Both the position numbers and the translations under genes were made by a program. The notes beneath the pieces were generated by a model, which saw only the letters and a list, made by a program, of their open reading frames with translations, did not search any database and had not been told where the DNA came from. A stretch of 64,000 bases of DNA from contig JAJDCX010000005.1 of assembly GCA_029260615.1 (NCBI GenBank), positions 1 through 64,000 on the forward strand, in the 5' to 3' direction. Each line of letters begins with the position of its first letter. Positions within the stretch are counted from its first letter, which is position 1. This DNA is from Phycisphaeraceae bacterium. GTDB lineage: Bacteria; Planctomycetota; Phycisphaerae; Phycisphaerales; Phycisphaeraceae. This document shows, one piece after another, positions 27,703-38,995 of this stretch.

Positions 27703-29274
27703 TTATTCCGGGCGGATCAGCTTGTACTTCTTCACGCGGTAGCGCAACACGTCGCGCGTAACGCCCAGCTTCCTTGCGGCGGCGGTTTGGTTCCAGCCGG
27801 TCAGGGTCAGGGTGCGGTGGACCAATTCTCGCTCCTGGTTTGCAAGCCGAGACCCGCTTGTTCCAACAGGAGCTTGCGGCGCGGCGTGTGGGGCGTTGGG
27901 GGCGAGCTGTTGCCAGGTAGGCCGGTCGTCTGCCTGGGGCGATTCAGAAGTGACTTCATGGGGCAACTCGTTCAATCCGATCCGCCCTTCACTGAGTAGT
28001 GCCGCGCGTTCGGTGACGTTGCGTAGCTCACGGATATTGCCCGGCCAGTGGTAGGCCGACATCGCACCAAGGGCTTCATCGGCGATCGTGAGTGACTCGA
28101 TGCCGAGTTCAGGGCCTAGCTGCTCCAGGAAGTGCGTCACCAGCGCGGGCACATCTTCCAAACGGTCGGCCAACGGCGGGAGCTCGATCGGGAAGACGTT
28201 CAGACGGTAGTACAGGTCTTCACGGAATCGGCCTAGCGATGACTCTGCCTTGAGATCACGGTTGGTGGCGGCGACCACACGGACATCGCACCGGAGGGTC
28301 TGGGTTCCACCGACACGCATGAACTCCCGCTCCTGAAGCACACGCAGCAGGCGCGACTGGCTGGACAGGCCCATCTCCCCGATCTCATCGAGAAACAGCG
28401 TGCCTCCCTCGGCCAACTCGAACCGCCCCGCCCGCTGCTCGGAGGCACCGGTAAAGGCCCCCTTCTCATGCCCGAACAATTCGCTCTCTAATAAGGTTTC
28501 GGTCAGAGCTGCACAGTTGATGGCGACGAACGGATGATCCCGCCTGGGGCTTAAGCTGTGCAGCGCCCGGGCCATGACTTCTTTACCCGTGCCGGTTTGG
28601 CCGGTGAGCAGGACGCTGGTGCGGGTCGGCGCGACTTTGCGTGCAAGACGCAGTGCCGCACGGATTGACGGGGCGTTGCCCACAACGGTCGGCGGGGGTG
28701 CCGCGTCACGGAGCGTCAGGTTCTCGCGTGTCAGGCGGTCCATAGCCTGGGCATTGCGTGCGGCAGAAGCGGTGAGGTTGGCGAAGAGCTTTAATAGTTC
28801 CAGATCCCGGTCGGAAAATTGTTTTTTCTTCGTGGGGTTGACCACTTCGACGACGCCGATGGCTTCGCCGGCAAAAACCAGGGGTGCAGCCAAGAGGCCC
28901 CGGGTGCGGGTGCGGGTCTTGCGGTCGATGTCGGGGAGGAAGTTGCGGTTCAGGGCGGTGTCGTCGATCCGCGCCGCCCGTTCGGTCTTGAGGACTTGAC
29001 CGGCGATACCCTGATCGATGCCGATGCGTGTGCCGACAAGCCCCCTGCTGCCGGGCCCGACCGCCGCTTGGAACACCAACTCATCCCCCGCATCCGAGAG
29101 CATCAATACGCTAGCACCCTGCGCATTGAGCACCCCCGCAGCACTGCGCACCAATAGCTCAAATACTTCCGCCAATTCCAGGCCACGATTCACGGCGTGG
29201 CTTGCCTCGACCAGTGCCAACAAGGTCTTGCGGTCTAACACTGTGGCAGTTTCAGGCAGCAAGTCATCAGGCAT
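27703..29274 (-). CDS. GAF-domain sigma-54-dependent transcriptional activator
   Basis: 523 aa. An N-terminal GAF sensor domain (about residues 25-175, with ends such as [20 protein letters not shown]) replaces a receiver domain, so it responds to a small ligand or redox signal rather than phosphorylation. The AAA+ domain has Walker A GQTGTGKE (225-232), the sigma-54 contact loop GAFTGA (272-277) and Walker B GTLFLDEI. The C-terminal Fis-type helix-turn-helix is at [20 protein letters not shown]. It is divergent from the CsgG-like gene; a 16-bp motif 37 bp before its ATG recurs upstream of a second operon. It most likely activates both. Confidence 0.93.
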
Positions 29275-29310
29275 GGGCGACTCCGGGGAAAGATAATATT
29301 AGGTCATATT

Positions 29311-29326
29311 ACCCTATATCAGGTTA
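29311..29326. promoter_or_regulatory. Candidate enhancer site of the sigma-54 activator (site 1)
   Basis: ACCCTATATCAGGTTA, an imperfect dyad, identical at 13 of 16 positions to the site at 34099-34114. It lies 212 bp upstream of the -24 element at 29523 and 37 bp upstream of the activator's own ATG. A degenerate half-site (ACTGGGTT) occurs at 29341-29348. Confidence 0.55.
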
Positions 29327-29522: not shown

Positions 29523-29538
29523 TGGCACGCCGGTCGTG
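29523..29538 (+). promoter_or_regulatory. Candidate sigma-54 promoter of the CsgG-like operon
   Basis: TGGCACG, 4 nt, TCGTG. The -24 element is perfect; the -12 is weaker (GT where GC is expected). It starts 67 nt before the ATG at 29590, exactly the same distance as the second promoter at 34291. The surrounding gap 29275-29589 otherwise holds only the enhancer site. Confidence 0.5.
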
Positions 29539-29589: not shown

Positions 29590-30627
29590 ATGACGACCAA
29601 GACCCACAAAATTTCGATCCTGACCCTGACCGTTCTGATGTTCACCCTGGGCGCTTCGCCTGCCAACGCATGGTTCAACGACAAAGAGAAGAACCGCAAG
29701 CGTGACAACGATGACATCCAGGTCGAGGCGACCGAACATCTGGCGATGTTGTCCGCCCCACTGCCCACGATCCCCGGCCCCAAGCGGACCGTGGCTGTGG
29801 CTCATTTTGATGCGATCGGCTCGTTTACTTCCGCACACGGCGGCTGGGATGTCGGCGGCGGCCTGTCGGCGATGCTGACCACCGCACTTATCGAATCCGA
29901 CCGTTTCATCGTTCTGGAACGCGGCAGCCTCAGCACGGTCATGAGTGAGCAGCAGCTCGCCGCCAACGGGCTGACCAATGCCCAGAGCGGCGCACAGGCT
30001 GGGAACCTCTTCGGTGCACAGCTTCTGATTATGGCCAGCGTCACCGAGTTCGGGCAGAACAACTCCGGCGGCGGGTTCAGCATCGGCTTTAGTGGCTCTG
30101 ATCTGGGCGGCGCGATCTCCCCCCAGTTCTCCAAGGGCTACGTCGCCATCGACGTCCGCATCGTTGATTCCACGACCGGGCAGGTGGTTAAGAGCTACAC
30201 CGTCCGCGAAAAAATCAAGTCCAGTGCCCTGGCTGGGAACATCAACTTCAAGGGTTTCAGCTTCGGCGGCAACAAATTCAACAGCACCCCACTGGGTGAA
30301 GCCAGCCGACGTGCGATCAACCAGGTTGCACAGCGATTCGCTGCCGAGGCCGGCGCGGTGAAGTGGACCGGCCGGGTTGTGGATGCCGAGCTCGGCGAGG
30401 TCTACCTCAACGCCGGCAGCACTAGCAACATCCATATCGGCGACAGCTTCAAGGTCTACCGGATCACCAAGACCCTGACCGACCCGACCACCGGCGAGCT
30501 GCTGGGCCAACGTAAGCGTCAGATCGGCACGATCGAGATCACCGAGGTCGAAGAGAAGCTCGCGATCGGCGAATTCCACAAGCTCATGGACGTCGAGCCA
30601 CAACGCAACGACCTGGTGATTGAGTAA
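29590..30627 (+). CDS. CsgG-family exported protein
   Basis: 345 aa from ATG at 29590. A signal peptide ends ASPANA at about residue 26; there is no lipobox cysteine, unlike true CsgG. The CsgG core is visible: VGGGLSAMLTTALIESDRFIVLERGSL, LAANGL, AGNLFGAQLLIMASVTEF, YVAIDVRIVDSTTGQVV. The C-terminal part (INIHIGDSFKVYR-type beta segment, residues 275-345) is an extra domain. CsgG secretes curli subunits; family members lacking the lipid anchor may have other envelope roles. It heads the sigma-54-type operon. Confidence 0.8.
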   Translation: MTTKTHKISILTLTVLMFTLGASPANAWFNDKEKNRKRDNDDIQVEATEHLAMLSAPLPTIPGPKRTVAVAHFDAIGSFTSAHGGWDVGGGLSAMLTTALIESDRFIVLERGSLSTVMSEQQLAANGLTNAQSGAQAGNLFGAQLLIMASVTEFGQNNSGGGFSIGFSGSDLGGAISPQFSKGYVAIDVRIVDSTTGQVVKSYTVREKIKSSALAGNINFKGFSFGGNKFNSTPLGEASRRAINQVAQRFAAEAGAVKWTGRVVDAELGEVYLNAGSTSNIHIGDSFKVYRITKTLTDPTTGELLGQRKRQIGTIEITEVEEKLAIGEFHKLMDVEPQRNDLVIE

Positions 30628-30696
30628 CCCGAAAGATCCGTTAGCCGTTAGCACTTAGCCATTAGCACATACACACAAACCATAAGGAATAGAGAT

Positions 30697-32061
30697 ATGA
30701 ACCGCATCGAGAACATCCTCCTGACCCTGGCCGTGGCCGCCGCCCTGCTGCTTGCCTCCACCGCCAACGCGGACCCCAACGACGGCCTACACGGCATCCC
30801 GGTTGTCAAGACACCTAACGGCACACGCATGGCTCGGGACCTGGAACTGGAAGAAGCCAACGCTGATTCAGGCACCAAGCCCGAAGACGGTTTGCCCGGT
30901 CGGCCGGTACTCCGCACGCCCAACGGCACTCGCACCGCCCGCGACCTCGAAGCCGAGCAGGCCAACCACAGCAACGGCCCGTGCCCGGAAGATAACAAGA
31001 ACAACAACCGCAACACCAACGGCACACGGACCCGTGCCGCCGACGAAGCCAGTTCACTGCTTAATCGCAACGAGGGCCTGCCCCTGGACCTCCCTAATAC
31101 CCGCACCAAGGACAGCGAACTGGCCGACCGCGACGCTGCGATAAATTCACTCAAGGACGCGGCGACTCGCAACAAGAACAAGAACGCTGACAACATAACC
31201 AAGAACACCACGCTGGAAAAAGCACTCAAGCGGGCCGGGATCGATCCCAAGCGGCTCAAAGGCGCTAAAACCAAAACCGACAAGTACGGCTCCACCACGA
31301 TCACCCTCGCCGACGGCACGGTCATCATGACCGGTTCGGATAGCGACGGTCTTGGCACCAGCGTCACCAGCCCCAACGGCGACCAGATCGAGGTCTACCC
31401 CGACGGCCGAGTGACCACACGCAAGGGACTTAAGGGCGACACCATCACACACCACCCCAATGGGACCACCACCCTTTACGACCCCAAGCAGGACAGCCTG
31501 ACGATCGTCGATAAGCACGGCCGAGTGATGACCCAGCCACTGGACTTCTTCAAGGGTTGGTACGCCAAGGGCTGGAACGCAGACACCATCCTGGACCTGC
31601 TCGACCCGATCCCGGGCCACAAGAACCCGGACAACACCACGTTCAGCGACACCCTGCGTCGTACGGGGATCAGCGCGGACGACTTGAAGAACGCCACTAG
31701 CGTGGAGACCAGCGAGCACAGCGATTCGGTCAAGATCACGCTCAAGGACGGCACGGAAATCTGGACCGGCCCGGACAACGACGGCTCGGGCTCCAGCGTC
31801 ACCAGCCCCAACGGCGACCAGACCGAGGTCTACCCCGACGGCCGCGTATCAACACGCAAGGGCAAGGACGGCCACACCATCACCACCCTCCCTGATGGGA
31901 TCACCCTGGACTACGACCCTCAGGACGAAACCCTCACCGTCACCGACAAGCACGGCAACAGCGAGACCCGCAACATGGACTACTGGAATGAATGGTTCAA
32001 GGCCGGCCACGACGCCGCCGACCTGCTGCGGATCTATCACGACGTGCCGGAGAACGACTAA
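30697..32061 (+). CDS. Secreted protein with tandem duplication of PNG/PDG beta-repeat modules
   Basis: 454 aa. Signal peptide 1-25 (STANA). Two short units (GLHGIPVVKTPNGTRMARDL and GLPGRPVLRTPNGTRTARDL) occupy residues 30-95. Then two about 140-residue modules, 171-313 and 314-454, are clear duplicates: TTLEKALKRAGI/TTFSDTLRRTGI, SPNGDQIEVYPDGRVTTRKG/SPNGDQTEVYPDGRVSTRKG and a final helix. The strand-NG/DG-turn pattern resembles the G-box beta-repeats of CPAP/TCP10 proteins, which form extended single-sheet fibres. It is the second gene after the candidate promoter at 29523. A cell-surface structural role is inferred, not shown. Confidence 0.7.
   Translation: MNRIENILLTLAVAAALLLASTANADPNDGLHGIPVVKTPNGTRMARDLELEEANADSGTKPEDGLPGRPVLRTPNGTRTARDLEAEQANHSNGPCPEDNKNNNRNTNGTRTRAADEASSLLNRNEGLPLDLPNTRTKDSELADRDAAINSLKDAATRNKNKNADNITKNTTLEKALKRAGIDPKRLKGAKTKTDKYGSTTITLADGTVIMTGSDSDGLGTSVTSPNGDQIEVYPDGRVTTRKGLKGDTITHHPNGTTTLYDPKQDSLTIVDKHGRVMTQPLDFFKGWYAKGWNADTILDLLDPIPGHKNPDNTTFSDTLRRTGISADDLKNATSVETSEHSDSVKITLKDGTEIWTGPDNDGSGSSVTSPNGDQTEVYPDGRVSTRKGKDGHTITTLPDGITLDYDPQDETLTVTDKHGNSETRNMDYWNEWFKAGHDAADLLRIYHDVPEND
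31207..32058 (+). repeat. Two tandem about 430-bp coding repeats
   Basis: Codons 171-313 (31207-31635) and 314-454 (31636-32058) of the secreted repeat protein are homologous along their whole length. They share identical 12- to 14-residue blocks around the PNGD-YPDGR motif. This is a gene-internal duplication. Confidence 0.75.
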
Positions 32062-32166
32062 GCCATGAAACATCACACCCCAAGCCAAAGTGACCTACCC
32101 AAAATGATCGACCCGACCGCAACCCACACACCCGTGTCAAAAGACACAAACTCAAGGAGCAGAACC

Positions 32167-33990
32167 ATGAAGACTCGCAAGACCACTACCGTGACCAAGC
32201 CCAAGCCCGCCATCCTTTTAGCCGCCCTGGCGGCACTGACCCTCGCGGGCACACCGCTGATGGCCAACGAAATCGCCATCGTCACCGGCAACCAGTCCGT
32301 CTACTCCGGCGGCGGGTACGCGACCCAGGCGACGCAAGCCACGCAGGCGAGAGGGTATGTTTCGCCGTTCTCGCCCAGTAATCCTTACAACCCCTCTACC
32401 GCCGGCAATCTGGCGCGGCCTTACCCCGTGAACACCGGCACGATTTACAGTTCGCCGGTAAACACGACCGTCGCACCGCTGACCACCGTGACGAACTCCC
32501 CGGTCATCTACCGCGAAGTGAGTCAGCCCACGAGCTACCGCGTGAACAGCCCCGTGTTCACCACCCGCAACGCCGGGCTGAACACCCGCGTGAATACCCA
32601 GACCGAACCGATGGAAACCCTGCCCGCGACGACTTCCACGACCACTAACACGGCGCCGGCAGTCAACACCCCCCGCCTGAGTATCCCGGTTGCCAATACC
32701 CGCGTTGGCAATCTAAACACCCGTGTCAACACGTCCGTGAACACACAGACCGAACCCGTCGAGACCGTGCCCAGCACGACGCATATGCCGACGCCGGCCT
32801 CAACGACGACCAGCCAGACGAGTAGCCACAACACCCCCACAACCAGCACCACAGCTGGTACCCCAGTTGCGACCACCCCGGCAACAACTCAGACTCACAC
32901 CGAGTCGCAAGCGGCAACACCCGTAGCCACCACGACGACTCACGAAACCAACACCACCACAGAGCCGGCCGTGGCGACCCAGAACCAGCCGGCGACGACC
33001 AGCTACGCGGCGAACAGCTCGCCTTGCCCGAAGGTCAACCGGCACGAAATCAATAACCGGATCGCCAACAACCTCCGCAGCAACGCGGCCGGCACAGCAC
33101 AGTCCCTGATCGCCCGCAGCCAGCCCGGCCACGTTTACGACTACAACTACTACAACACCGCGACCGATGAGCTGGCCACCCGCGCTGCGATCGGCAACCA
33201 GTTGGCGCAGGGATTAACGGTCGCCCACGATTACATCGGCGGGCCCGAGACCCCCAAAACCTATTACCGTGTCGCCGGTGGTGATTTCACAGCCACCACC
33301 GTATCGCCTCCGATCCCCGAGTACCCCCCCACCGTCCGTCCGATCAATGCCGGCGAACTCAACGACGGACAGCTAGCAGGCGCGGTGGAAAGGGGCCCGG
33401 GTCTGGTCAAGCACTACCTGGACCAGGCCGCAGAGCTTCGTGCCGACGCGACGGGTTACCGTGAGCGTGCCGAGCAGTGGCGTGCCGACGCGGCCCGAGC
33501 CCGTGCCAACGCCGAGGCCTCGCGTGAACGTGCCAAGAATGCCAAGACCGATGAAAACCGTGAGTTCCACGAAGGCCAGGCCGAGACCTACGACGACCTG
33601 TCGGACATTCTGGAAGATTCTGCCAGCGGGTTGGATCGTTCCGCGGCGAATGACGACGCGGCTGCCGAGTCGTACGAAGCGGACGCGGCACAGTCTGCGG
33701 CGAACTTCGGTCAGGCCGTGGCAGAGCAGGCCCAGCGTCAAGCCCAGGCTGCGGCGCAGGCCGCACAGGCCCAGGCGGCCCGTGAAGCAGAGGCCGCACG
33801 AGTGGAAGCCGCTCGGCAGGCACGGCTGGATGCGTTGATCCGCCAGTCACAGCAGGACCCCCAGCCGAGCACAACCTCACAGCCCCGGCAGAACACCGGG
33901 CCCCGCCAGCCATCTCGACCCGACGACCGCATCCCCCGTCCCGGTCGCGAGCCCCGCAACGAGACCATCAGGAAGCTGCTGAACGACTAG
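32167..33990 (+). CDS. Secreted Thr-rich/coiled-coil protein
   Basis: 607 aa from ATG at 32167, preceded by AAGGAG at 32154-32159. The signal peptide ends near LMANE (about residue 37). Residues 50-300 are low complexity: Thr/Asn/Pro/Val-rich, with two imperfect copies of an NTRVNTQTEPMETLPATTST-type unit and long TTT runs. A globular middle (residues about 300-430, starting SPCPKVNRHEINNRI) is followed by an Ala/Arg/Glu-rich region (435-570) with heptad character, likely a coiled coil, and a basic Pro-rich tail. No family recognised. It could be a surface filament or stalk component in the same operon. Confidence 0.65.
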   Translation: MKTRKTTTVTKPKPAILLAALAALTLAGTPLMANEIAIVTGNQSVYSGGGYATQATQATQARGYVSPFSPSNPYNPSTAGNLARPYPVNTGTIYSSPVNTTVAPLTTVTNSPVIYREVSQPTSYRVNSPVFTTRNAGLNTRVNTQTEPMETLPATTSTTTNTAPAVNTPRLSIPVANTRVGNLNTRVNTSVNTQTEPVETVPSTTHMPTPASTTTSQTSSHNTPTTSTTAGTPVATTPATTQTHTESQAATPVATTTTHETNTTTEPAVATQNQPATTSYAANSSPCPKVNRHEINNRIANNLRSNAAGTAQSLIARSQPGHVYDYNYYNTATDELATRAAIGNQLAQGLTVAHDYIGGPETPKTYYRVAGGDFTATTVSPPIPEYPPTVRPINAGELNDGQLAGAVERGPGLVKHYLDQAAELRADATGYRERAEQWRADAARARANAEASRERAKNAKTDENREFHEGQAETYDDLSDILEDSASGLDRSAANDDAAAESYEADAAQSAANFGQAVAEQAQRQAQAAAQAAQAQAAREAEAARVEAARQARLDALIRQSQQDPQPSTTSQPRQNTGPRQPSRPDDRIPRPGREPRNETIRKLLND

Positions 33991-34098
33991 TCATCAGACA
34001 CCCGGCTGAATTCCCGGCGGCGCCACAAACGGTGCCGTCGGGGCGGTCGGGCAAGCCTCATGGAAACGACCTGCGGGGATATAGATATAAGTAATTTT

Positions 34099-34114
34099 AC
34101 CCAATATTGGGTTA
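34099..34114. promoter_or_regulatory. Candidate enhancer site of the sigma-54 activator (site 2)
   Basis: ACCCAATATTGGGTTA; its first 14 bases are a perfect palindrome. Identical to site 1 at 13 of 16 positions. It lies 192 bp upstream of the -24 element at 34291, two helical turns less than site 1. A half-site ACCC follows at 34143. Confidence 0.6.
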
Positions 34115-34290
34115 TATGACACTGACAGAATAGAGAATTATTACCCATACAATCGAAGCCTTTACACGAACCGATCCAAGAAAATGACGTTATTGAAGCA
34201 GCCAAATGAATTTTAATTGTCTTTATAAAAAGAAGTTACGGTTCTACATAAGACTTGCTCTTTTAAAAACAATCACCCGACCGAACCCTC

Positions 34291-34306
34291 TGGCACGGCC
34301 ATCGCA
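34291..34306 (+). promoter_or_regulatory. Sigma-54 promoter of the second repeat-protein gene
   Basis: TGGCACG, 4 nt, TCGCA, with the invariant GG-N10-GC spacing. It lies in the 367-bp AT-rich gap 33991-34357 and starts 67 nt before the ATG at 34358. Confidence 0.7.
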
Positions 34307-34357
34307 ACTACACACAAGGACACACGAACCAGAATCACCCAACGAAAGGACCACACC

Positions 34358-35215
34358 ATGAAAGCTTCACAGATCACAACCCGTAACCGCAAGGGCATCA
34401 AGGTCGTCAAGTCACTCGCCGCTGTGGCGGTCCTGACTTTTTTCGCCGCCGCGCCTGCCGACGCTCGATGCAGAAGCCAGGTGCAGCAGGTGCAGATCGA
34501 GTCCCGATACCTCGATGCCCAGAGCCAGGATATCCACGAGTTGGGCGTGCGTGACACCCAAGACCTGTCACACATCCCGCGTGTCGAGGTGCTCCGGGAC
34601 GGGCAGGGCTACTCGGGCGATCGATGGGGCCGAGAGAACATCAACCGACCCATCATTATCCGCGGGCTTGGCCAGCCGATGTATGGCAACACGACCATCC
34701 CCATCAGCAATGACACGGAATACCAGCGAAAGAGGGAAGAAGAACGCCGTCTGCGTCAGCGTATTATTGATGGTCTAAAGGGTGCCGGTGTGATCCGTGA
34801 ACCCGGCCAACCCGCCACCACGACTACCAAACGCAAACGCAAGCCCCAACCCACACCCAAGCCCACGCTCAAGCCCACCCCTGAGCCCAAGCCCCAGCCC
34901 AAGGTCACCAAGCTGCCCAACGGCGATCAGATCACCGAGTACCCCGACGGCCGACGCGAGATCAAGATGAAGAACGGCGACACCGTCACCACCCACAAGG
35001 ATGGCAAGCGCGTCATCAAGAAAGCCAACGGCAACACCACCGTGACCGAGCCGGGCGGCTACCGTAAGACCACCAACCGCTACGGCGACGGCACGGCTCA
35101 CTTCCCCGATGGCACGCGGATCGACTTCAAATCCTCCGGCGAAGCAACCCTGACCCGCCCTGACGGCAAGAAGTTCCACCGCATGCCCGGCAAAGGGTTC
35201 ACACCCGTGGACTAA
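34358..35215 (+). CDS. Secreted protein with C-terminal G-box-like beta repeats
   Basis: 285 aa. Signal peptide to about residue 36 (APADA). A first domain of about 110 residues has no recognised relatives; a short charged helix (EYQRKREEERRLRQRI) and a Lys/Pro linker (PQPTPKPTLKPTPEPKPQPK) follow. The last 100 residues are a regular beta-hairpin repeat with turns LPNGDQ, YPDGRR, MKNGDT, HKDGKR, KANGNT, YGDGTA, FPDGTR and RPDGKK. This is the CPAP/TCP10 G-box pattern and matches the module of the protein at 30697. The second sigma-54-type promoter precedes it. Confidence 0.72.
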   Translation: MKASQITTRNRKGIKVVKSLAAVAVLTFFAAAPADARCRSQVQQVQIESRYLDAQSQDIHELGVRDTQDLSHIPRVEVLRDGQGYSGDRWGRENINRPIIIRGLGQPMYGNTTIPISNDTEYQRKREEERRLRQRIIDGLKGAGVIREPGQPATTTTKRKRKPQPTPKPTLKPTPEPKPQPKVTKLPNGDQITEYPDGRREIKMKNGDTVTTHKDGKRVIKKANGNTTVTEPGGYRKTTNRYGDGTAHFPDGTRIDFKSSGEATLTRPDGKKFHRMPGKGFTPVD

Positions 35216-35250
35216 ACTGTGCAGACGAGACTAAAAAAGACTCACCCACA

Positions 35251-35278
35251 AGCCCAGGGACCACCCCCGGGGCTTTTT
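35251..35278 (+). terminator. Intrinsic terminator after the G-box protein gene
   Basis: AGCCC (35251-35255) pairs with GGGCT (35270-35274) around an inner GGG/CCC pairing, followed by five Ts. It separates the repeat-protein unit from the SH3-M48-cyclase genes. Confidence 0.6.
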
Positions 35279-35341
35279 CCTTTCTATTCACAGCCACTGG
35301 GCTTAACATGTCGGGCCTCAAGGGAGCCACAAGGAGCCGCC

Positions 35342-35890
35342 ATGATGCCTCGCACCGTTACCCATCTCTGGATCACAATGATTGCGATTGGCCTGACCGC
35401 ATCGGTCTTCGCAAAAAAGCAGGCCGACAAAGACATCTCCAAGGACGCCCCTCCGACTATGAACGTACAGGTAAACGACGCAGCAGTCCGCGCCGCGCCC
35501 AGCTTCCTCGCCGAAGTCGCCTCGACACTGGGTTACGGTGACCCGGTCGGCGTGCTGGAAAAAACTGAGGGATGGATGAAAGTACAAACCCATGAACCGC
35601 AAGCGGCCGGTTGGATGCACGCCTCGGCGCTGACAAAGACAAAGATCAGGCTCGACGCCGGGGAAACCGACGTCAACGTCCAGGCGAGTCAGGAAGAATT
35701 GACCGCCGGGGGCCGGGGCTTTAATCAGGAAGTCGAAGATAAATTCCGCGAGGAGAACGAAGAACTCGAAGCCGCCTACAAGCTATTGGATCGACTCGTT
35801 AAAGACCCCGCCGGCCAAGTATCTCGGGCAGAGATGATCCAGTTCATGCATGATGGAACTCTGACGGACAAGCCTGGGGGTGGCCAATGA
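35342..35890 (+). CDS. Exported SH3-domain protein
   Basis: 182 aa from ATG at 35342. An N-terminal signal peptide (ITMIAIGLTASVFA) precedes a bacterial SH3 domain, residues about 38-100 (MNVQVNDAAVRAAPSFLAEV, GDPVGVLEKTEGWMKVQTH, AAGWMHASAL). The C-terminal half is helical and charged (FREENEELEAAYKLLDRLV). Such domains bind cell-wall peptides or protein partners outside the cytoplasm. Its stop overlaps the M48 protease start by 4 nt, so the two are coupled. Confidence 0.75.
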   Translation: MMPRTVTHLWITMIAIGLTASVFAKKQADKDISKDAPPTMNVQVNDAAVRAAPSFLAEVASTLGYGDPVGVLEKTEGWMKVQTHEPQAAGWMHASALTKTKIRLDAGETDVNVQASQEELTAGGRGFNQEVEDKFREENEELEAAYKLLDRLVKDPAGQVSRAEMIQFMHDGTLTDKPGGGQ

Positions 35891-36813
35891 ACACGCTCCG
35901 CCGCCAACGTCGCATGGTGGTCACCCTGCTTTTGGGAGTGGCTGTACTTGTAACACTATCTCAACATAGCTATTCGCAGTTTGGCATCGGGCTTGGTGAT
36001 GACGACGGATTCAGCGTCGACATATTCCAGGCTGGTAAAACCGGCATGAGCCTCGTTGAGGCCAGGCGAAGCTTCACCCTCAAGCATGAGCACTATCTCG
36101 GCCGGGCGGTCGCGGCAAATATCCTCAGTAAATACACCGTGTATAAAGACCCGGCGGCGAACCGATACGTCACCCTGCTTGGTCAGACGATCGCGGCACA
36201 CAGCGATATGCCCCAGACGTTCGGCGGGTACTTGTTCATCCTCCTGGACAGCGACGAGGTTAATGCCTTTGCCGCGCCAGGGGGGATCATCTTTATCACA
36301 CGGGGCATGCTTAGGGCCTGCGAGAATGAGGACCAGTTGGCTGTGGTACTGGCACACGAGATCGCCCATGTACAGGGCCGGCACGGGATCGAATTGATCA
36401 AAGACAGCCGGTGGAAGAAGTTCGGTGCCAATCTCGGATTGCTGATAGTGGCCGGGGTCGATGGCGGGAACCTCGCCCCACTTGTGGATGTGTTCGGCGA
36501 CATGGTCAAGGACATCGCCAACGAGATCATGACAAAAGGCTACGGCAAGAAGCTCGAGAAGCAGGCCGACACCGATGCGCTGACGATCCTGATGCGCGTC
36601 GGGTACGAGCCACACGAGAGCATCACGTTGATGCAAAACATGCAGGAACGCTTTGTTAAAGGTAAAAAAGACTTCGCCAAGACCCACCCCAAGCCCAAGG
36701 ACCGGATCAAGACGATCGGCAAGGCCTTGAAGGGTGAGCCCGAGGCGTCCGAGGTCCCGGCGGTGCGTGTGTCGCGATTCGATGCGGCTATGAGCCAAGC
36801 CCGTGCCCAATAG
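35887..36813 (+). CDS. Exported M48-family zinc metalloprotease
   Basis: 308 aa. Signal/anchor helix at residues 10-25; the catalytic HEIAH at 157-161 lies within LAVVLAHEIAHVQGRHG, and the third zinc ligand is the Glu of EKQADTDAL. DEVNAFAAPGG upstream is the usual M48 substrate strand. The THPKPKDRI motif is the BepA/YfgC/LoiP-type ending, and no TPR repeats follow. Such periplasmic proteases degrade misfolded outer-membrane proteins. It is translationally coupled to the SH3 protein and followed by the CHASE2 cyclase. Confidence 0.88.
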   Translation: MNTLRRQRRMVVTLLLGVAVLVTLSQHSYSQFGIGLGDDDGFSVDIFQAGKTGMSLVEARRSFTLKHEHYLGRAVAANILSKYTVYKDPAANRYVTLLGQTIAAHSDMPQTFGGYLFILLDSDEVNAFAAPGGIIFITRGMLRACENEDQLAVVLAHEIAHVQGRHGIELIKDSRWKKFGANLGLLIVAGVDGGNLAPLVDVFGDMVKDIANEIMTKGYGKKLEKQADTDALTILMRVGYEPHESITLMQNMQERFVKGKKDFAKTHPKPKDRIKTIGKALKGEPEASEVPAVRVSRFDAAMSQARAQ

Positions 36814-36841: not shown

Positions 36842-38995
36842 ATGAACACGACCCGTAAGTTGACGGCCGGCCTTGTGATTGGTGCCGCCTGTGCGCTGGC
36901 AGCGTGGGTCGTTGGCCTTGTTGGTTTGCTTAACACACCCGAGCACATCACATGGGATGCACGCCAGCGGTTCTATGCACAGCCCGTCGATAAATCACTG
37001 CCGATCCGGGTGATCCTGGTGGATGAGCAGAGCCTGGAGTGGGCCAAGGCGATGAACCTTCCGGTGAAATGGCCGTGGCCCTACGAGGTGTACACACCGA
37101 TCATCGACTTCTGTCGAACTGGTGGCGCTAAGTCAATCGCGTTCGACATCCAATTCACCGAGCCCGGGCGCTTCGGCCCAAGGGACGATCAGATACTCGC
37201 TGGCACCATCGCCAAAGCACCGGACTTCGTCGCCGCAGTCGCCCCCGGCGTGGAGACCAGCAGCCCGGCATCCTGGCCCGACGACCTCGATCGGCCGGGT
37301 TTTACGGTTAAAGGATTCGAGGGGTATTACAAATCAACCAACGTACAGGGCCTAATAGCAGAACGCTGCCGGTTTCCCTTGGACCTGTTCGCCAAGAGCG
37401 CTACCACACTGGGTCACATCGCAATAGACCCTCAAGCCAAGAAGTCCGCGGTGCGGAAGGTCCGTCCGTTTATCCGCTTCGACGGATCAGACATCCCGAC
37501 ACTTGGGCTCGCGGCCTATCTCATCGGAACGGGTCAGACGCAGGCCGAAGCACGGATCGTAGGCGATGAATTACATATCGGTGAGGTGACGATCCCGCTG
37601 GGTAATGATGGTCGGGCGCATCTGCGTTTCCGTAAACCCAACAAAGCGGAGAATGGTCATCTGTATAAAACATACAGCGCCGCCGCGGTGATCCAGTCCC
37701 AGCTGCGTCTCGCCGCCGGGGAGAAACCGAGCATCGACCCCGCCGAGTTTCGGGGGTGTTATGTTTTCTTTGGCCTAAGCGCGTCGGGGCTATACGACAT
37801 CGTCCCCACACCGGTGTCCCCACTTAGCCCCGGCGTGGAGATCCACGCGACGTTTCTGGACCATGTATTGAACAACGATTTTACCCGCGACGCCGGGCCG
37901 ATGTGGGTGTTGTTGTTTGCGTTGGTGGTTTCGGTCGCGGCCGGGTTGGCGGTGGTTTTTATTCCGGGCTTGTCCCGGCTGCTCGTGGTTTACCTTGTTG
38001 CGTTGCCGGTCCCGGTGGTGATGGGATTCACGATGTTCCGTGGTGGGGTCGCCTGGCCGATCGTGTGGCCGAGCCTTGCGGTGATGATCTCGCTGGTCGG
38101 TGCAACTGTGTTTTCATTGGCAACCGAGGGGAAGCAACGCCGGTTCATAAGGCGTGCGTTTGGGCATTACCTAAGCCCCACGGTGATCGAACAGGTGCTG
38201 GCGGACCCGTCGCTGCTTCGGCTCGGCGGTGAACGCAGGGAGGTTACGGTGATGTTCATCGACCTGGAAGGCTTCACCTCGATCGCAGAAAAACTCGATG
38301 CTCAGGTCCTGGCGTCCCTGCTTAATGATTATCTCTCTGAGATGAGCGAGGCGATCCTGAAAGAGCAGGGCACCCTCGACAAGTACCAAGGCGATGCCGT
38401 GATGGCGTTCTGGAACGCGCCATTGGATCAGCCAGACCACGCACTGCGTGCCTGCCGGGCGGCGCTGCGGTGCAAGGATCGGCTTGCCGCCCTGCGACGA
38501 AACTGGTTCGAGCAGACAGGGCAGGAGCCCCGCATCCGCATCGGCGTACATACCGGCGTGTGTATCGTCGGGAACATGGGCTCCAAGCAGCGATTCGACT
38601 ACACCGTGCTGGGCGACACCGCGAACCTCGCGTCGAGGCTCGAAGGTGTCAATAAGGTGTTCGGGACGACGGTGTTGGTGTCCGAGGATGCCTGGTCACA
38701 CACCGATGGAAAAATAGCCGGCCGCACAATCGGGCAGGTCACAGTAGTCGGACGGGTGGAACCGATCCGTGTGTTTGAACCTTACTCGCTAGACCCCAAT
38801 GCCGATCATGCCACCGGCGATGCGTTCCGGTCGGCGATGTCATTCTGTGGCGAGGGTCGACTCGTGGACGCGATGCACCGGTTCCAGGAGATCGACAACG
38901 ACCCGGCGGCGAGGGCCTATGTGGACAAGCTCGCATCAGTGTTGCAGACAGCCGAACCGAAGTGGGACGGTGTGTGGGAGTTGTCACACAAGTAG
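36842..38995 (+). CDS. CHASE2-domain class III adenylate/guanylate cyclase
   Basis: 717 aa. An N-terminal TM helix, then a CHASE2 extracytoplasmic sensor (about residues 40-345; PIRVILVDEQSLEW, SIAFDIQFTEP, KNPGVEIHAT-like end), three TM helices (about 350-430), and a class III cyclase domain (about 460-650). Catalytic features are VMFIDLEGFTSIAEKL (metal Asp), YQGDAVMAFWNAP and VHTGVCIVGNMGSKQRFDYTVLGDTANLASRLEG. It should make cAMP or cGMP in response to an outside signal. Base-specific residues were not resolved. Confidence 0.9.
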   Translation: MNTTRKLTAGLVIGAACALAAWVVGLVGLLNTPEHITWDARQRFYAQPVDKSLPIRVILVDEQSLEWAKAMNLPVKWPWPYEVYTPIIDFCRTGGAKSIAFDIQFTEPGRFGPRDDQILAGTIAKAPDFVAAVAPGVETSSPASWPDDLDRPGFTVKGFEGYYKSTNVQGLIAERCRFPLDLFAKSATTLGHIAIDPQAKKSAVRKVRPFIRFDGSDIPTLGLAAYLIGTGQTQAEARIVGDELHIGEVTIPLGNDGRAHLRFRKPNKAENGHLYKTYSAAAVIQSQLRLAAGEKPSIDPAEFRGCYVFFGLSASGLYDIVPTPVSPLSPGVEIHATFLDHVLNNDFTRDAGPMWVLLFALVVSVAAGLAVVFIPGLSRLLVVYLVALPVPVVMGFTMFRGGVAWPIVWPSLAVMISLVGATVFSLATEGKQRRFIRRAFGHYLSPTVIEQVLADPSLLRLGGERREVTVMFIDLEGFTSIAEKLDAQVLASLLNDYLSEMSEAILKEQGTLDKYQGDAVMAFWNAPLDQPDHALRACRAALRCKDRLAALRRNWFEQTGQEPRIRIGVHTGVCIVGNMGSKQRFDYTVLGDTANLASRLEGVNKVFGTTVLVSEDAWSHTDGKIAGRTIGQVTVVGRVEPIRVFEPYSLDPNADHATGDAFRSAMSFCGEGRLVDAMHRFQEIDNDPAARAYVDKLASVLQTAEPKWDGVWELSHK

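Follow-up and report, generated by a model that had tools for sequence, protein, structure and literature searches.

Gene content and conservation of the locus

The window analyzed here comprises 64,000 nucleotides (positions 1 to 64,000) of contig JAJDCX010000005.1 from a Phycisphaeraceae bacterium of the phylum Planctomycetota (GenBank assembly GCA_029260615.1) and contains a set of four forward-strand genes whose products are candidates for a jointly regulated envelope or surface assembly. These are csgG (29590-30627), encoding a protein with CsgG and FlgT_C domains, as identified by Pfam; GB1 (30697-32061), encoding a secreted, acidic protein of two tandem modules with short G-box-like stretches; Thr (32167-33990), encoding a secreted, acidic protein with a region rich in Thr, Pro, and Asn; and GB2 (34358-35215), encoding a secreted, basic protein that ends in a G-box sheet. 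An earlier description made from the letters alone (the sequence-only reading) had placed open reading frames (ORFs) at these positions, with the CsgG-like gene first and the Thr-rich gene between GB1 and GB2, and had proposed that the proteins are secreted. The four ORFs and their arrangement were confirmed, and inspection found a Sec-type N terminus on every product (PANA/WF, TANA/DP, PLMA/NE, and ADA/RC for the csgG product, GB1, Thr, and GB2, respectively).

The gene order activator-csgG-GB1-Thr-GB2-SH3-M48-CHASE2 is kept in all five other genomes of the genus, as far as their contigs reach. Ratios of nonsynonymous to synonymous substitution rates (dN/dS) were 0.15 to 0.28 for csgG, GB1, Thr, and GB2 (window versus one sister species); the four genes are real and under purifying selection. 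Comparison of neighborhoods, a check that the sequence-only reading had proposed, showed that the four genes co-occur across the genus, where neither outcome that it had named as contrary (a globular fold or relatives without the CsgG-like gene and signal peptides) was encountered. CsgG proteins of the window type (≥86% identity) are confined to the genus, and more distant CsgG relatives (~30% identity) are found both in the genus and in three further genomes. When 397 genomes drawn from the class were searched, GB1 turned up only in the one to which the window belongs; a search of 392 genomes drawn from the phylum found the G-box profile Tcp10_C (PF07202) in 5. The pairing of G-box and CsgG does not extend beyond the genus in the stretches read, as no CsgG relative lies beside the Tcp10_C genes of other planctomycetes. 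G-box-like repeats were also seen elsewhere in planctomycetes, at L099:5879-9292 and L035:6870-9038, one in a protein whose N terminus resembles pseudopilin-type secretion proteins and the other in a secreted protein with a dockerin domain.

In their share of C-ending codons, GB1, Thr, and GB2 rank near the top of the window's genes (rank-sum P = 0.01), and their dS values are below those of most neighbors, which suggests abundant, highly expressed structural proteins. The dS to species G003 is 0.34 to 0.65 in the genes from csgG to GB2 versus 1.1 to 1.4 in SH3-M48-CHASE2, reflecting either codon bias or recent recombination.

G-box sheet of GB2 and partial likeness in GB1

GB2 consists of an N-terminal part modeled with low confidence, a Pro/Lys-rich linker, and a G-box sheet at the C terminus (residues 181-284, window 34898-35209, forward strand) and has an isoelectric point of 10. 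The AlphaFold model, built on an alignment of four sequences, has 12 antiparallel 9-residue strands in residues 181 to 284 with a predicted local distance difference test score (pLDDT) of ∼95, while most of the remainder is of low confidence. In a Foldseek search of the PDB the top eleven matches were G-boxes of CPAP or SAS-4 (E = 1e-6 for CPAP), and VIA-align superposed the model on CPAP (4ld3) with a Z score of 12.7 and a root mean square deviation of 2.2 over 111 residues; MORN, OspA, and phage baseplate sheets reached Z scores of ∼10. Tcp10_C matched GB2 with an E value of 1.5e-7 and 31.4 bits in hmmscan, which is under the curated cutoff of 36 bits, and with 36.8 bits summed over the frame in the genome-wide search, and phmmer matched GB2 to CPAP chains at 1.1e-5. 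Ten of the 14 glycines in residues 181 to 280 share one 9-residue phase, a regularity reached by 0 of 20,000 shuffles. As modeled, the fold of GB2 is G-box-like, a single-layer sheet, and either homology with CPAP or convergence on a simple repeat could account for the likeness. The sheet shares with the CPAP/SAS-4 G-box its single antiparallel layer, short strands, and NG/DG turns, but GB2 is bacterial and secreted, follows a stricter 9-residue repeat, and has unrelated partners. The Pro/Lys linker gave a weak TonB match (E = 0.038). A TonB-plug-like motif, VEVLRDGQG, was also suspected in GB2, and Pfam gave it no support.

GB1 comprises two tandem modules of ∼130 amino acids, 51% identical to each other, and N-terminal repeats of ∼35 amino acids that differ in copy number between species. 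Each module has one short stretch that matches the GB2 repeat (E = 6e-6 and 1e-5; hhalign, 1.1e-6), and Tcp10_C reaches an E value of 0.012 on GB1 and 0.0029 on one ortholog. The glycines of GB1 are not in 9-residue phase (3 of 10-11). The G-box likeness of GB1 therefore appears to be limited to part of the protein and is weaker than that of GB2. The sequence-only reading had assigned G-box repeats to both proteins and had suggested profile searching and structure modeling as checks; the assignment holds for GB2, which matches the profile and models as an extended sheet, and only in part for GB1.

CsgG-like protein

Membership of the CsgG family, also proposed earlier, is well founded: residues 63 to 259 match PF03783 with an E value of 4.8e-33 and 114.7 bits against a cutoff of 20.8 (Pfam). 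The C terminus carries an FlgT_C domain (PF16538, E = 4.9e-7), which also matches TsaP (6ve2) at 1.5e-8 in a profile comparison. Orthologs are 86 to 92% identical. CsgG of Escherichia coli is an outer membrane lipoprotein. The protein encoded here shares the CsgG domain but has no lipobox, as the sequence-only reading had remarked, and has the additional FlgT_C domain; the corresponding position reads PANAWF in the window protein and its orthologs, and the window protein contains no Cys. It scores 30.4/505 bits against the CsgG equivalog model (NF011731) and 22.4/300 bits against that of HfaB, both far under the cutoffs. With FlgT and TsaP it shares the C-terminal FlgT_C domain and the lack of lipidation, but its main domain is CsgG, no LysM domain was found, and there are no associated flagellar or pilus genes. 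A role as a secretion channel is possible. A second CsgG-family protein, 31% identical to the first, is encoded at L033:236-1294 (contig C68 of genome G000) and is conserved throughout the genus and in genome G008; its gene adjoins genes resembling a cytochrome c nitrite reductase pair.

Thr-rich protein

The Shine-Dalgarno sequence of Thr is better at the 32167 start than at that of the longer ORF at 32065. Thr accounts for 25% of residues 36 to 285, the region rich in Thr, Pro, and Asn, and an Ala/Arg/Glu-rich region is probably helical. A Cys in a PCP[KE] motif and an RPDDRIPR-GREPR tail are conserved. At least one Cys is conserved in each of GB1, Thr, and GB2, and this, together with the opposite charges of GB1 and Thr (acidic) and GB2 (very basic), means that the three proteins could join. 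The Thr ortholog of species G004 (L030:11129-12982) has, after its signal peptide, a near-complete plug domain of TonB-dependent receptors (PF07715, 3.6e-16) in place of the Thr-rich region, and no barrel domain was recognized in this protein. Directly 3′ of the Thr stop codon lies a strong GC hairpin without a T run (34001-34051, forward strand), kept in four species, which is possibly the end or a stabilizer of the first transcript.

Probable regulation by sigma-54

Divergent from csgG, on the reverse strand, lies a gene for an enhancer-binding protein with a GAF domain, a sigma-54 activator domain, and a Fis-type helix-turn-helix (27703-29274; Pfam Sigma54_activat, 1.7e-71; GAF; HTH_8), which scores 418/529 bits with the NifA model. 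It adjoins csgG in 5 of 5 genomes in which the junction is assembled, and this NifA/NtrC-like activator is the probable dedicated regulator. A candidate activator-binding site, TTACCCTATATCAGGTTA (29309-29326), with the palindrome TTACCC-N6-GGGTAA, lies upstream of csgG, with 281 to 283 bp to the start codon in each of five species, the copy of G004 having four mismatches. A sigma-54-type −24/−12 element, TGGCACGCCGGTCGT (29523-29537, forward strand), follows 67 bp before csgG (−66 to −68 in five species). GB2 is preceded by a second candidate site, TTACCCAATATTGGGTTA (34097-34114; −248 to −271 in four species, with 0 or 1 mismatch to the palindrome), and by a −24/−12 element, TGGCACGGCCATCGC (34291-34305, forward strand), 67 bp before the gene (−65 to −68 in four species).

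The −24/−12 pattern TGGCAY-N5-TCG is found in nine regions, with single departures in both G003 copies; its −12 part reads TCG rather than TTG, and since this consensus was adapted from the same sequences, the associated shuffle counts are generous. In six genomes, only csgG and GB2 match the composite pattern of operator plus promoter. The 18-bp operator pattern alone, with one mismatch allowed, occurs at seven further places in the genome, without the AT-rich center, and it is therefore only the composite that is specific. The genome contains rpoN. The sigma-54 control suggested by the sequence-only reading thus has its activator, candidate operators, −24/−12 elements, and sigma factor gene, and this pattern speaks for csgG-GB1-Thr and GB2 forming a regulon of their own.

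Downstream genes

An intrinsic terminator, a stem followed by TTTTT (35250-35280, forward strand), lies after GB2, with a folding energy of −15.3 kcal/mol in the window and −24.4 and −20.7 kcal/mol at the corresponding position of two sister species. It is followed by forward-strand genes for an SH3 protein (35342-35890), an M48 protease (35887-36813), and a CHASE2-guanylate cyclase (36842-38995), all assigned by Pfam. Because of the terminator and the absence of the composite sigma-54 pattern before SH3, a single operon running through CHASE2 was ruled out, and SH3-M48-CHASE2 is probably a syntenic but separate transcription unit. A short motif resembling GCTGGGCTTAACATG lies ahead of SH3 (35287-35310) in several sister species and may belong to the SH3 promoter region.

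Possible function of the encoded proteins

We propose, with a probability of roughly 0.45, that the locus encodes a sigma-54-switched envelope or surface assembly aided by a CsgG-family protein, similar in logic to the HfaABD holdfast anchor of Caulobacter but built from different subunits. The divergent GAF-type activator, once triggered, would bind the TTACCC-N6-GGGTAA sites and give rise to two transcripts, csgG-GB1-Thr and GB2, whose products would be exported from the cytoplasm through the Sec pathway. At the outer membrane, the CsgG/FlgT_C protein would most likely form an oligomeric ring for export or anchoring of the others, a role comparable to that of HfaB toward HfaA and HfaD. The structural parts would be GB1, Thr, and GB2, in which G-box sheets may serve either as stiff, flat rods or as surfaces for binding. 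Disordered spacers rich in Thr or in Pro/Lys, charge pairing, and perhaps disulfides through the few conserved Cys residues might hold the parts together, and the whole could serve adhesion or another surface function. This reading is favored by the conserved gene content and order, purifying selection, the domains, the fold of GB2, and the paired operators and promoters with rpoN in the genome. Further support comes from the codon usage and dS values that suggest abundance, from the opposite charges and conserved Cys residues, and from the case of HfaB and its partners HfaA and HfaD, a precedent for the placing of structural proteins on the cell surface by a member of the CsgG family (PMC6707917). 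As in HfaABD, a CsgG-family protein is grouped with exported proteins, but there is no curlin-like HfaA, and the other subunits and the regulator differ. The combination of known parts is undescribed; no paper on bacterial G-box/CsgG clusters was found in the literature.

Several observations weigh against such an assembly. No evidence favors a location of GB1, Thr, and GB2 beyond the outer membrane over one in the periplasm, and no lipobox Cys was found in the CsgG-like protein or its orthologs. Alignment of this protein to E. coli CsgG extends up to the second hairpin, and its model (pLDDT, 45) is too poor for judging the pore hairpins. The low dS could stem from recombination rather than expression. 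A search for curlin repeats (PF07012) gave nothing at E ≤ 1 in the genome, which is 94% complete; this agrees with the sequence-only reading, which had reported no CsgA/B repeats, and the curli interpretation was rejected. The G-box/TCP domain of CPAP, moreover, is reported to recognize proline-rich motifs, to be predominantly monomeric in solution, and to be unlikely to self-associate like amyloid (PMC3776556), so that a G-box alone is no proof of a fiber. The fiber or surface layer envisaged in the sequence-only reading stands in its components, namely, the G-box sheet of GB2, the CsgG family, secretion, sigma-54, the lack of curlin, and co-occurrence, while the fiber or layer itself is unproven. 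Its most specific form, an extracellular, noncurli, nonamyloid filament or sheet of G-box β-ladders exported through a nonlipidated CsgG/FlgT_C ring and controlled by a sigma-54 switch of its own, seems to us quite improbable.

The same observations can be read in other ways. The CsgG/FlgT_C protein might be a soluble ring component like FlgT and TsaP, which surround flagellar or pilus machinery, with the G-box proteins as periplasmic adaptors that are not exported further; the Sec signal without a lipobox, the match of FlgT_C to TsaP, and the likeness of the GB2 linker to TonB-type periplasmic spacers, weak as that match is, all fit such a scaffold. It is nevertheless somewhat unlikely, as no secretin, pilus, or flagellar gene was recognized in the unit and Thr-rich low-complexity regions appear to be commoner in exported proteins. 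The G-boxes could instead bind proline- or arginine-rich tails, such as the Thr tail or the GB2 linker, in a network of adaptors with no β-sheet fiber. The behavior of the CPAP domain cited above is consistent with this, as is the conservation of the Thr tail while the rest of Thr varies. However, the STIL-binding aromatic residues of CPAP are not kept in the pairwise alignment with GB2, in which the contact residues F1015 and E1021 of CPAP correspond to L186 and I192, the register within the repeat being uncertain. A STIL-like PRxxPxP ligand was ruled out, as the motif is absent from GB1, Thr, and GB2, and we regard the network as distinctly unlikely. Finally, the four genes might form one signaling system for envelope sensing or remodeling with the SH3, M48, and CHASE2 cyclase genes, which stand in the same order in every member of the genus with that stretch assembled. 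The terminator and the promoter pattern separate the two groups, however, and an M48-CHASE2 pair also occurs in G022 of another genus (whose contig ends inside M48), where no CsgG relative passes 1e-10, making a single system very improbable.

Implications

If the proposed CsgG-assisted assembly is correct, the range of systems built around CsgG-family proteins would reach past curli and holdfast anchors. It would do so in a small set of uncultured planctomycetes, with a domain otherwise best known from animal centrioles. A secreted bacterial G-box that is easily expressed would make the end-to-end assembly of open sheets directly testable, and the private regulator and its operators would provide a handle on the timing of the structure's production.

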